Shown here in pieces: positions 29,405 to 59,139 of a stretch of DNA of 64,000 nucleotides (positions are counted from its first letter, which is position 1; each line of letters begins with the position of its first letter). Position numbers and translations under genes: made by a program. A model generated the notes under the pieces. It did no database searches and had not been told where the DNA came from. It saw nothing but the letters and a program-made list of their open reading frames with translations. Source of the stretch: Trichostrongylus colubriformis (Eukaryota > Nematoda > Chromadorea > Rhabditida > Trichostrongylidae); assembly GCA_963978905.1 (NCBI GenBank), contig OZ022259.1:55942727-56006726 (forward strand), written 5' to 3'.

Positions 29405-29983
29405 GTTGCCTGGTGCGCACTACTGTGCGCGTAACACGAAGAGCGTCAGTATATCGGTCGGCACCAATTTTTTTTTACAAACTTTAATCTTAGATTGTAA
29501 TTCGCTCCGCCCATTGTAAACGGTTCTCCGCTTATTTTGAGTGTATTCAAAATAGCACGGACATAGGTTACTTATACCGACTTTTCCTGGCATGAAGGCT
29601 GCTTCATGACTCTGTTAGGAGTCTTATAAGGACCGCTTACTCGAGATGCGCTCCGCCCACTGTGCCCGAGCTTCTTTCAGGCTTTCAGAGCTCATTCCTG
29701 AGCTGAGTTCATCTCGAACCCAACTGACCATTTCCGGTCTGAAAACGGGTCATTCCAGTGCACGCCCCGCCTACCGTAGGCGGAGCTTAACTTTGCCTAT
29801 GTACGGTCTTTGTGTCCCATGCCCTACTCATTCAACACTTGTCCCCATCTCCAAAGGTCGTTTTTCATATAGTACCTAATTTCGTGACAGACGGACGAAC
29901 GGATGGAGGGACGGATGGACGAAGGGGCGGACGGACGGAGGGCTGTACAGACAGAGGAAGTCTTCAATATATAGTAGGGATCG
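29405..29983. repeat. Repeat-B, complete copy 1
   Basis: It starts at a short hairpin (TGGTGCGCACTACTGTGCGC) and passes through GCTCCGCCCA blocks, ACGCCCCGCC..GGCGGAGCTTAACTT and TTTCGTGACAGACGGACG. It ends at an AATATATAGTAGGGAT tail. The same order is seen at 45,108-46,213 and across 48,430-48,719 plus 58,373-59,140. No coding sequence. A G/A-rich GACGGACG simple repeat lies near the end. Confidence 0.7.
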
Positions 29984-40585: not shown

Positions 40586-40607
40586 CCCAGACTTGGGTAA
40601 TTGAACC
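40586..40607 (-). other. SL1-like sequence, 19 of 22 positions
   Basis: Read on the minus strand this is GGTTCAATTACCCAAGTCTG followed by GG; it differs from nematode SL1 at three positions. It is preceded by CTGT and followed by GGTACAGTACGG, without an ORF I recognise directly downstream. It may be a decayed copy of an SL1-bearing insertion or a chance match. Confidence 0.35.
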
Positions 40608-45107: not shown

Positions 45108-46213
45108 AAATTGGCTGGCGCACACTTCTGTGCGCGAATTCCAGGGGCGCCAGTACGTCGATCGGAATTACTTTTTCTTCTCGACAGAGTATTTTAATGC
45201 AAGCTCCGCCTACCGTGGGTGGGTCTTAGTGTGGTTCATGTGTGCACCTTACTTCGGGTCAATTCAAGTTCGGGGGGGGGGGGGGAGACGCAATTTTGCG
45301 TCAAATTTCCATCGACGTCGAGCTTCTTCCCCTCCCTAGGCTTAGGCTAAAGCAGATGAAAACTATGCTTTGACAGATGCTTTTTCATGTGGGGGGGGGG
45401 AGGATATCAATTTTAGCCTAAGCCTAGGGAGGGAAAGGAGCTTCTACCTTGACGCAAAATTGCGTCTCCCCCCCCCCCCCCCCCGACTTGAATTGACCCC
45501 TTACTTCTTATTCCATGCCCTACCCTTTCCGGAATTTACCCCATCTCCATGAGTTGTTTTTCATGTAATGCCCAGTCTTCGCCCACTACTGTAAGAGCTC
45601 AGCCCACCATTCAATCGTCTCATTCTTCTATAGCTCTAGCTACCACTGACTACTTTTCCTTTTCTGCTGGTCTCCAGATCATTCTAAAGACAAATTACAT
45701 TTTTTTTGCAGAGAGTGTCATCTGACGAATTACACTCCCCCCTCTCTGTAAGCGGTTTTCGCCTATTTTGAAGGTGTTCACGATAGCATGAACACTGATC
45801 ACTCCCACCGATTTTTTCTAGTTTATATGCCGTGTCGGAACCGAGTCATGAATTTTTGCTGTAGGGACCGCCCATTCAGGATGTGCTCGGCCCACTGTGG
45901 CGATGACGCTTTCATGACTTTCAGAAACTCATCCCTGACCTTATTCCATCTTTTCCCCATGTTTGGGGCATATTAGAACCCAATTAGCAATTTCCGGTAT
46001 GAAAACGGAACGTTCCAGTGCGCGCTGCTCCCATCGTGTGCGGAGTTTAACCTGGCCCATGCGTGCTCCTAAGTCCTTGTTCCATACCCTACCCATCCCA
46101 AACTTGTACCCATCACCACAGGTCGTTTTTCACATAACATCTAATTTTGTGACAGATGAACAAAGGAACAGAGGGATGCACAAACCGTCGAAGTATTTTA
46201 TATATAGTAGGGA
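45108..46213. repeat. Repeat-B, copy 2, interrupted by a MITE
   Basis: It starts GGCTGGCGCACACTTCTGTG and continues through CTCCGCCTACCGT..GGGTCTTAG, then after the MITE (45,256-45,499) resumes at TTCCATGCCCTACCC. It ends TTTTATATATAGTAGGGATA. Two concatenated B-like units (CTCCGCCCA..TTTGAAGGTGTTCA) seem present. Confidence 0.65.
45256..45499. repeat. hAT-like foldback MITE with homopolymer G/C tracts
   Basis: The ends GGGTCAATTCAAG / CTTGAATTGACCC are mirrors, flanked by an 8-bp duplication CTTACTTC (45,248-45,255 and 45,500-45,507). Just inside lie 14 G (45,272-45,285) and 17 C (45,468-45,484), then mirrored AGACGCAATTTTGCGTCAA. The core resembles the 18.2-kb MITE. An 8-bp target duplication fits the hAT class (inference). 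Confidence 0.8.
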
Positions 46214-46597
46214 TAATCGCTTCTGATCGCTACCCAATTTAATTCTACTCCATTGCGTACGCGCTTGCACAATTTCTTTGTGTTGCTTGTTGTCGCCAAT
46301 TTACTCGCTTTCAGTGATTCGTAGCTGAACAGCTTAGGTTATTTTCGGCATTATATAGGCTTTTATGCATACATAGAAACTTTTACGCAAACTCTTGCAC
46401 ACATAACTTGCAGGTGGTATCAATGGTAACCGCTCCCCAATGTCTAAATTACGCTCAATCGCTTACTGTATTGCACAACGTAAAAGATGACCATTCACAC
46501 AATCGACGAAATGCCGTTTAATTGAGACGCAGCCTTTCTTTCCATCGCTGGCGTGCAGACATTCTTCCATGGTTGATTCCTTGACCTATGCAAATAA
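46214..46597. other. No recognised feature
   Basis: AT-rich flank of the mariner copy. I see no gene, RNA or repeat border. Confidence 0.4.
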
Positions 46598-48429: not shown

Positions 48430-48719
48430 CGGTTGGCTGGCGCACACTACTGTGCGCGAAACACCAAGTGCGCAGTAGTTCTATCGAAATGCTCTTTTCA
48501 TGAGGGCATAGTATTTCAGTGCACGCTGCGCTCAATGAGGGAGTAGCTTAACTTGGTGCATGGGTGCTCCTTCTTATCCCATGCCCTACCCATCCCAAAC
48601 TTGTTCCTATTTCCACAGGTTGTTTTCATGTAGCGTCCAAGCTCTGCCCACCACCATGAATGCTCCGCCCACTGTCTCCAGACTTCTTTCGTGACTTTCA
48701 GAAACTCATCGCCGGTGAA
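48430..48719. repeat. Repeat-B, copy 3, left part (interrupted by the BEL/Pao element)
   Basis: It starts GGTTGGCTGGCGCACACTAC at the usual hairpin and runs to AAACTCATCGCCGGTGAA. The repeat resumes on the far side of the retroelement at 58,373 with CTTCTCCACGCTTGGGTCAT, continuous with the order seen at 45,930-45,980. Confidence 0.75.
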
Positions 48720-54094: not shown

Positions 54095-54412
54095 GGTTCA
54101 GTTGTTGGCCACGCTGTTGCTCACCACACGACAAACACCACTTTTATTACCAATCCAAACCAATCGACCCTCAAACTTGGGTAATTAAACAAGAACAATG
54201 TTATTCAATAAAATTAAAAAACCTAAGAGAGCTAGAAAGGGAAAGTGGTGGGTCTCATCGATTTCTCCCCAATTTATACCCCCCTTGGTCCTTTTGGCGC
54301 GAACCGATACTTGATGGGGGGTCGCGACCTACCGCTGGCCTGATCTGGGCGGTCAATTTTTCCTCGCCCCTCGTGAAGGGGGCCTAAATCCTTCCAGCAA
54401 GATCGCGAAGTG
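54095..54412 (-). repeat. Putative solo LTR inserted in the RT, carrying an SL1-like sequence
   Basis: About 315 bp interrupt the RT frame. On the minus strand it has a TATA-like GGGGTATAAATTGGGG (near 54,285), an AATAAAA signal (near 54,142) and compact LTR-like size. The left edge reads ATATCGCGACACTTCGCG and the right edge GGTGAGCAACAGCGTGGCCA. I could not settle the exact borders or a target duplication. It does not match the BEL/Pao LTRs of the host element, so it comes from another family. Confidence 0.5.
54170..54191 (-). other. SL1 sequence inside the putative LTR, 21 of 22 positions
   Basis: On the minus strand TTTAATTACCCAAGTTTGAG is exact, preceded by G, with only the first SL1 base changed (T for G). 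It is followed by GGTCGATTGG and lies about 100 bp downstream of the TATA-like box and about 30 bp upstream of the polyadenylation-like signal. Confidence 0.75.
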
Positions 54413-58367: not shown

Positions 58368-58873
58368 TCCATCTTCTCCACGCTTGGGTCATATTGAAAC
58401 CCAATTTACAATTTTCGGTCTGAAAACTGGACATTCCGGTGCACGCCCGCCCTTCCGTGGGCGGAGCTTAACTTGATCCATGTGTGGTCTTTACTTCATA
58501 TCCCATGCTCAACCCATCCCAAACTTGTCCCCATCTCCATAGGTTGTTTTTCATGTGACGTCCAAGCTCCGCCCACCACTGCAAATTCTCCGCCCATTGT
58601 GAACACGCTCGTTCCTGCCTTTAAAAAACTTATTCCTGACCTCAATAGCTTTACTCACCTTTGGAGAACCCCATACACAATTTTCGGTATGGAAACGGAA
58701 CATTCCAAAGCCCACCCCGCCCACCTAGGCGGAGCTTAGCTTGGTCCATGTGGGGTCTTTAGTTCCCTACCCATACCACACTTGTCCCCATCACCACAGG
58801 TAGTTTTTCATATAATACCTAATTTCGTGACAAACGGACGGACGGACGGAGGGACAGACACACGAAGAGTTTT

Positions 58874-59111
58874 TTTGCCAATACCAGCTCCAGAACCAGC
58901 AACACCAACGGTAACAGCTCCTGCTCCGATATATTTGGCAGCACTGTCAATATCCTTGCGAGCGACAGAGGTATGGAGGCACCGCGCAGCCAGCGCACTC
59001 TCCGCACGAAGAGCAAGAGGTACTCGAGTGGCGGCGATAGAGCGAGCCAAAGGGACGGCGAGGCGCTGGCAGTACATAATTAACCTCAAACTTGGGTAAT
59101 TAAACCCTATT
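58874..59111 (-). pseudogene. SL1-capped retrocopy of mitochondrial ATP synthase subunit c, 3'-truncated
   Basis: On the minus strand an exact 22-nt SL1 (59,085-59,106) is followed by a 7-nt leader GTTAATT and an ATG at 59,077. The 67 codons to 58,877 match the start of ATP synthase lipid-binding protein (F0 subunit c): a basic mitochondrial presequence ([20 protein letters not shown]), then [15 protein letters not shown] and [10 protein letters not shown] of the first membrane helix. Homology stops there, in AAAAAAA. The second helix and the proton-carrying Glu/Asp are absent; the frame just runs on into repeat-B sequence. A 7-bp duplication GAGTTTT flanks the insert (58,867-58,873 and 59,112-59,118). 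Because SL1 is added only by trans-splicing, the source must have been a mature mRNA. Five bases (AATAG) precede SL1. Uncertain: why the 3' end is missing. Confidence 0.85.
59085..59106 (-). other. Exact genomic copy of the nematode spliced leader SL1
   Basis: The minus strand reads GGTTTAATTACCCAAGTTTG then AG, all 22 positions of nematode SL1. It is not an SL RNA gene: no donor GGTAA, Sm site or SL RNA body follows, but a coding 5' end does. Confidence 0.95.
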
Positions 59112-59139
59112 GAGTTTTATATATACAAGGGATAGAGCA

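Follow-up and report, generated by a model that had tools for sequence, protein, structure and literature searches.

Evidence for retroposition of an SL1 trans-spliced ATP synthase c mRNA in the genome of Trichostrongylus colubriformis

Processed pseudogenes made by LINE machinery are intron-less, dispersed and flanked by target-site duplications; usually they are 5'-truncated and carry a poly(A) tail. Retrogenes of dinoflagellates are described as retaining relicts of the spliced leader (PMC6050394; see also PMC12014239). For Brugia malayi, 120 integral SL1 sequences are described, 60 of which lie no more than 1 kb from PAO elements, and trans-spliced retrotransposons are invoked in the passages concerned (PMC7181701). 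Partial leaders at LTR and LINE elements of flatworm loci are ascribed there to the integration of trans-spliced retrotransposon transcripts (PMC12582326). Spliced Cer1 mRNA of C. elegans is described both with and without SL1 (PMC3315495), and the SL1 of Haemonchus, as given in the passage cited, is identical to the sequence considered here (PMC7652881).

We analysed a stretch of 64,000 nucleotides of Trichostrongylus colubriformis (hereafter the window; C6:55942727-56006726), which lies about 196 kb short of its contig's end in an assembly of 52 contigs and 330,937,049 bases. The first-pass annotation had proposed that an SL1 trans-spliced mRNA was retroposed at 58874-59111, and comparison with the rest of the assembly gives this proposal good support. 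With a probability of roughly 0.9, we suggest that LINE-type machinery reverse transcribed a capped, trans- and cis-spliced ATP synthase c mRNA and that the product entered the genome at a staggered break.

The ATP synthase c insert, its parent gene and its target site

Read on the minus strand, the insert carries an exact 22-nt SL1, a 7-nt leader and the first 67 codons of ATP synthase c (Table 1), just as the first-pass annotation had described it. The SL1 match is not expected by chance (0 matches in 100 shuffles of the window, even allowing 3 mismatches). SL2 was tried as the leader and rejected, with no match in the window. The 67-codon translation ends in ...GAGIG; the copy's protein matches solved ATP synthase c chains (best E 2.7e-13), and the 67-residue piece by itself gives no Pfam match. 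In an SL RNA gene, SL1 would be followed by a GT donor and then by the body of the SL RNA; here the sequence is SL1|GTTAATTATG, and nothing in the window matches SL RNA of Rfam.

Searched against the whole genome at the DNA level, the insert with its short flanks returned three matches: the insert itself, C6:15590664-15590722 and C6:15591344-15591501. The last two belong to a gene at C6:15590664-15591501 (plus strand, about 15.59 Mb), the single parent found by this search and, as had been anticipated, located in the same assembly. It encodes a protein of 116 residues with a Pfam ATP-synt_C domain (PF00137, E 2.3e-12). Exon 1 of the parent opens TTTCAG|GTTAATTATG, so that the trans-splice acceptor falls exactly at the SL1 joint of the copy. 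The leader is thus present at the splice joint of the copy (SL1|GTTAATT) and absent from that of the parent (TTTCAG|GTTAATT), the pattern that characterizes a spliced-leader-tagged retrocopy. SL1 is not ordinary genomic sequence of the parent locus: every 22-base site in 9.9 kb, on both strands, has at least 6 mismatches to it. A GT-AG intron of 622 bp separates exons 1 and 2 of the parent; it is missing from the copy, where the exons are joined exactly. With the leader included, the copy differs from the parent at 6 of 210 nt, four of the differences being synonymous and two not. Taken together, the parent without SL1, the acceptor at the exact SL1 joint and the missing intron give good support to retroposition of a trans-spliced mRNA.

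As the first-pass annotation had noted, the copy has its full 5' end, up to and including SL1, but no 3' end. The match to the parent ends in the middle of exon 2 with GGCAA; beyond this the parent goes on with CGTATTC and is not A-rich there. An exon end as the cause of the 3' stop is therefore rejected by the mid-exon position of the break, and the earlier suggestion of internal priming on an A-rich stretch found no support as stated, the parent having just GGCAAC at this point. The A-run reported at the 3' junction does exist, seven A in all; as a poly(A) tail it was rejected. On the mRNA strand the joint reads GGTATTGGC-AAA-AAAACTC, in which four A can be assigned to the duplication, two (58875-58876) agree with the parent GGCAA and one (58874) is extra and unexplained. 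A poly(A) tail or the 3' end of the mRNA, usual in processed retrocopies though not universal, is hence absent from this copy, which ends within exon 2. At the 5' joint, AAAACTC-AATA-G-SL1 on the mRNA strand, the 5 nt AATAG (59107-59111) separate the duplication from SL1.

The GAGTTTT duplications were likewise found on both sides, as first reported. An exact 7-bp repeat with each copy no more than 5 bp from its breakpoint turned up 51 times in 20000 trials with random breakpoints 245 bp apart. A script also took out the insert and one duplication, and the joined flanks (junction at position 103) were aligned to other sequences. Positions 1 to 119 of the joined flanks align with the paralogous empty site over 123 columns at 77%. 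Pieces of four further loci (L005, L021, L022 and L024) extend 5 to 17 bases beyond the junction, L022 at only 64-70%, and the alignment to the repeat copy at 29829 ends at position 97, short of the junction. The duplication by itself is moderate evidence of insertion; the empty site is the stronger evidence.

Table 1. Positions of the insert, its surroundings and SL1-bearing sequences (window positions unless loci are named)
Feature	Position or loci	Strand	Basis
Insert, partial cDNA of SL1-trans-spliced ATP synthase c mRNA, 238 bp	58874..59111	-	parent comparison
Left target-site duplication copy GAGTTTT, 7 bp	58867..58873	.	read directly; empty-site comparison
Right target-site duplication copy GAGTTTT, 7 bp	59112..59118	.	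read directly; empty-site comparison
SL1 spliced leader, exact 22 nt (GGTTTAATTACCCAAGTTTGAG)	59085..59106	-	sequence match
Leader GTTAATT, 7 nt, equal to the parent sequence right after the TTTCAG acceptor	59078..59084	-	
ATP synthase c coding 5' part, 67 codons plus AA, without intron 1 (starts at 59077)	58875..59077	-	
3' junction, three A on the mRNA strand	58874..58876	-	parent comparison
Extra G immediately 5' of SL1, proposed cap copy	59107	-	
Four extra nt, AATA (mRNA strand), between duplication and G	59108..59111	-	read directly
Dispersed repeat, cDNA inserted at its end (GACGGACGG-rich)	58398..58866	+	partial copies in window
Partial copies of the flanking repeat in the window	29719-29912, 45979-46154, 48539-48675		
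Paralogous empty site, repeat unbroken across the junction (CGAAGTATTTTATATATAGTAGGG vs CGAAGAGTTTTATATATACAAGGG)	46093..46215	+	
Second sequence like SL1 (1 mismatch), outside the insert	54170..54191	-	
TATATAAACCAGGAGTTTGGT-type repeat site in the window	40586-40607	-	
TATATAAACCAGGAGTTTGGT-type repeat sites elsewhere	L013:3244; L025, L026, L028-L034, L036, L037		
TATATAAACCAGGAGTTTGGT-type repeat, further loci	L051, L053-L057, L059, L068, L076, L079		
LTR or LTR-like families, loci each	A 6, B 6, C 5, D 3, E 2, F 2, G 1		

Exact SL1 copies and the base that precedes them

Genome-wide, exact SL1 occurs 905 times (263 forward, 642 reverse); the reversed control pattern occurs 0 times. By subtraction, SL1 is followed by GTA in 859 copies. 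The other 46 matches, at 45 loci, continue with A, C or T (14), with G and a base other than T (4) or with GT and a base other than A (28). We read all 45 non-GTA loci and grouped them from sequence clusters into 10 copies of a TATA repeat (dispersed, and with a TATA-like box ahead of SL1), 25 LTR or LTR-like copies, 3 SL RNA-like copies, 1 unassigned locus (L050) and 6 of insert type, namely the window copy, L044, L045, L047, L052 and L080. Among the SL1-GTA sites, 20 of 859 were read, all on C1: 13 are TATA repeats and 7 are SL RNA genes or gene-like. Units of the SL RNA array read SL1|GTACTTTTAAGATCC. Tandem SL1 copies at about 450-bp spacing occupy C1:31.90-32.08 Mb, where six places were read and contain SL1 RNA genes. 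At C1:32.53 Mb lie two SL RNA-like copies with altered donors (L062, L087). A dispersed repeat in which TATATAAACCAGGAGTTTGGT or a similar sequence precedes SL1, usually with a GTAC donor-like sequence after it, may be a mobile repeat carrying an SL-RNA-like unit.

A genome search for SL1 with a preceding G found exactly 6 of the 905 exact copies, identical to the six insert-type loci. In the 25 LTR-class copies, SL1 is preceded by A (21) or T (4) and never by G, and at L050 it is preceded by C; a preceding G thus marks 6/6 insert-type events, or 6/7 if L050 is counted among them. The six loci had been labelled insert-type among the 45 non-GTA loci before this search, and the labelling was not blind, the preceding base having already been seen when L045 was kept and L050 set apart. 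The PIN domain of L045 was found only after labelling; L050 has no Pfam match. Fisher's test of 6/6 versus 0/899 gives 1e-15, an overstated value as the 899 copies represent a few families and not independent events, and the test over the 45 loci with L050 as an insert (6/7 versus 0/38) gives 9e-7, which is overstated likewise. Reverse transcriptases are known to copy the cap as G. The extra G fits copying of the RNA cap, and in part it could reflect an insertion-site preference. One further match to SL1 with the preceding G, over 17 bases, lies at C7:23135246-23135262 (minus strand) and is possibly an older retrocopy.

Further inserts and SL1 inside LTR elements

The first-pass annotation had expected other SL1 copies followed by coding 5' ends and flanked by short duplications. 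Such inserts are present, two of them with parents; clear flanking duplications were not seen at either. The first (L044, on C1) is an intron-less copy of ICMT (Pfam PF04140, E 1.3e-31). Its parent at C7:9372652-9375359 matches in six exon pieces that are 98-99% identical, and its five introns are missing from the copy. At the SL1 joint the parent reads TTTCAG|ATGCC, with no SL1-like site in the 439 bases examined, 60 of them upstream. The 3' end of the copy falls within the 3' UTR, at ...GCACAGAA, where repeat sequence takes over; no poly(A) is present. Its surroundings are a high-copy repeat, represented by 39 other copies and one short piece among 40 scored of 3193 candidates, and the copy replaces about 470 nt of this repeat, so that the insertion is not clean. 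Two other copies of the repeat have related sequence on both sides. A template-switch chimera was considered for this locus; an insertion into the repeat that removed about 470 nt of it is no less probable.

The second (L080, on C7) copies a gene for a proline-rich protein, whose parent at C5:58739663-58740777 (58.74 Mb) has a TTTTCAG acceptor without SL1 and two introns of 52 and 59 bp that are missing from the copy. Copy and parent are identical at 969 of 1003 aligned bases (96.6%), with one base missing in the copy; the same search also brought up four weaker relatives, split evenly between C5 and C7. The copy extends beyond the stop codon and an AATAAA, with no poly(A) run. Together with the window copy, three cellular SL1 retrocopies with parents (ATP synthase c, ICMT and the proline-rich protein) are established. 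By content, L045 (PIN_4, E 1.1e-9) and L047 (GPS, E 1.3e-4, just above Pfam's cut-off) are probable mRNA copies as well. The remaining insert (L052, with L089) is a LINE according to its endonuclease and reverse transcriptase matches and has SL1 with the preceding G at its 5' end; neither its 3' end nor a flanking duplication was found in the 1.2 kb read.

Among the LTR-class loci, the pairs L064/L065, L077/L078, L081/L082 and L085/L086 have SL1 in both LTRs. In all four pairs the 300 bp upstream are near identical (0-1 mismatches), and the two members diverge 62-89 nt after SL1, at the LTR end. The inner copy of each pair has TGGTGCATCG at the LTR end or after 1-2 bases; this resembles a primer-binding site, which we take to be that of tRNA-Gly. 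L048/L049 show no divergence within the 1.2 kb read, and the LTR end of family D was not seen. LTR status is shown by the pairs for families A, B and E; families C, D, F and G were read as LTRs from sequence. Directly before SL1 stands AATAAA in 6/6 copies of family A, GATAAA in family E and one of the two copies of family F, AATGAA in the other copy of F, GAATAA in family G and AGTAAA in family B, with nothing similar in C and D. A putative polyadenylation signal before SL1 is thus clear in one family only. L070 (family B, C5:27860606-27860648) has a tandem SL1, the second without its first G, as would be expected if trans-splicing had used the AAAG before an LTR-encoded SL1 as its acceptor, with the resulting RNA then copied back into DNA. 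The perfect SL1 in these LTRs is a selection effect of a search that used exact SL1.

The position of SL1 in the LTRs suggests that it may act as their R repeat. We tentatively extend this to a possible cycle in which host SL1 is the R repeat of BEL/Pao-like elements and is rewritten in each round: the 5' SL1 would come from trans-splicing, and the 3' SL1 would be LTR-encoded, after AATAAA in one family. LINE machinery would also copy trans-spliced, capped RNAs, and cellular retrocopies with a cap-derived G would be its by-product. SL1-containing LTRs make it possible to test whether a retrotransposon borrows an essential repeat from host trans-splicing.

Several further features were observed in these elements. 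After its 5' LTR, L065 resembles an extended portion of a tRNA in complement, presumably of tRNA-Gly, and not just its last bases. CCGCGTGGCA recurs just after SL1 in several LTR families. The second SL1-like sequence of the window is part of what is probably a solo LTR, TATA-bearing and about 300 bp long. This solo LTR is nested within a BEL/Pao-like element, at about 52.1-56.8 kb, that was named by eye from its open reading frames. By eye this solo LTR is like LTR family C (L060), yet it does not cluster with that family.

Mechanism and comparison with known systems

In the reading that we prefer, the mature mRNA, carrying SL1 by trans-splicing, cis-spliced and capped, would have been the template for reverse transcription. 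An enzyme of LINE type would have run through to the extreme 5' terminus of this template and read the cap as G. Synthesis would have started inside the message, or on a broken message, with the T-ending target strand (GAGTTTT-3') pairing with AA; a template switch is an alternative start. The AATA at the 5' joint would be an untemplated addition, and a staggered break in the dispersed repeat would have given the 7-bp duplication on insertion. The LINE-type enzyme, the copying of the cap and the internal start are what we infer for the window copy from its joints. Both 3' ends measured against a parent, those of the ATP synthase c copy (atp-9) and of the ICMT copy, are internal, lie at AA and share 2-3 nt with the neighbouring sequence; these two cases are too few for a rule.

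The same 3' ends, internal and without poly(A), and their 2-3 shared nt would also be produced if a free cDNA had been captured at a double-strand break by end joining and not by target-primed synthesis. This is the main rival, and the filler AATA at the 5' joint of the window copy and the replacement of about 470 nt of repeat by the ICMT copy speak for it. The exact 7-bp duplication and the empty site nevertheless suggest a staggered cut with gap filling, and we regard capture by end joining as unlikely here. It is very improbable that LTR-retrotransposon machinery produced and inserted the copy. Such elements do carry SL1 themselves in this genome, at 25 of the 45 non-GTA loci, and one SL1-like sequence of this kind lies 4.9 kb from the insert. 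However, the preceding G is found in 0/25 LTR-class copies against 6/6 inserts, and the insert has no LTR or primer-binding site, in contrast to the four LTR pairs described above. Moreover, LTR integrases usually leave duplications of 4-6 bp, which the 7 bp seen here exceed. Later deletion of the 3' part from a full-length retrocopy would account for a complete 5' end with a missing 3' end; the duplication adjoins the truncated end, however, where the deletion would have needed to stop exactly, and we give this explanation very little credence. An assembly artefact or cDNA contamination, which would likewise look spliced and SL1-tagged, is hardly credible given the flanking duplication, the empty-site paralogue, the 6 of 210 nt at which the copy departs from the one parent that was found, and the two other cases at unlinked places, 96.6% and 98-99% identical to their parents.

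Because SL1 joins a message only once it has been transcribed, every copy of this kind records, unambiguously and with its strand marked, the return of an mRNA to DNA. SL1 with the preceding G forms a 23-nt signature that here selects 6 of 905 copies, each of which belongs, to judge by its content, to the mRNA or LINE type. A scan for this signature can be applied to any nematode assembly to gauge how much retroposition cellular genes undergo, how completely 5' ends are copied and what use LINEs make of trans-spliced RNAs. In the part of the literature that was covered, we found no report of an SL1-tagged cellular retrocopy in a nematode, which does not prove that none exists.

Like the processed pseudogenes made by LINEs, the window copy is intron-less and dispersed and has a duplicated target site; unlike them, it is complete at the 5' end through SL1 and lacks the 3' end. 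The SL1 sequences near PAO elements of Brugia malayi are likewise SL1 fixed in nematode DNA through retrotransposed trans-spliced RNA; they concern retrotransposons, whereas a cellular mRNA copy is found here and none is described in the passages cited (PMC7181701). The passages on partial-leader loci of flatworms describe no cellular gene copy either, in contrast to the window copy (PMC12582326). A further close parallel is with the DinoSL-tagged retrogenes, which are likewise mRNAs with a trans-spliced 22-nt leader that came back into the genome with leader relicts kept (PMC6050394). They belong to a different phylum, carry a different leader and are recognised by the leader relicts, and whereas the passages cited contain no such set of evidence (PMC6050394), the locus described here combines parent, intron, duplication and cap-G evidence at a single site.
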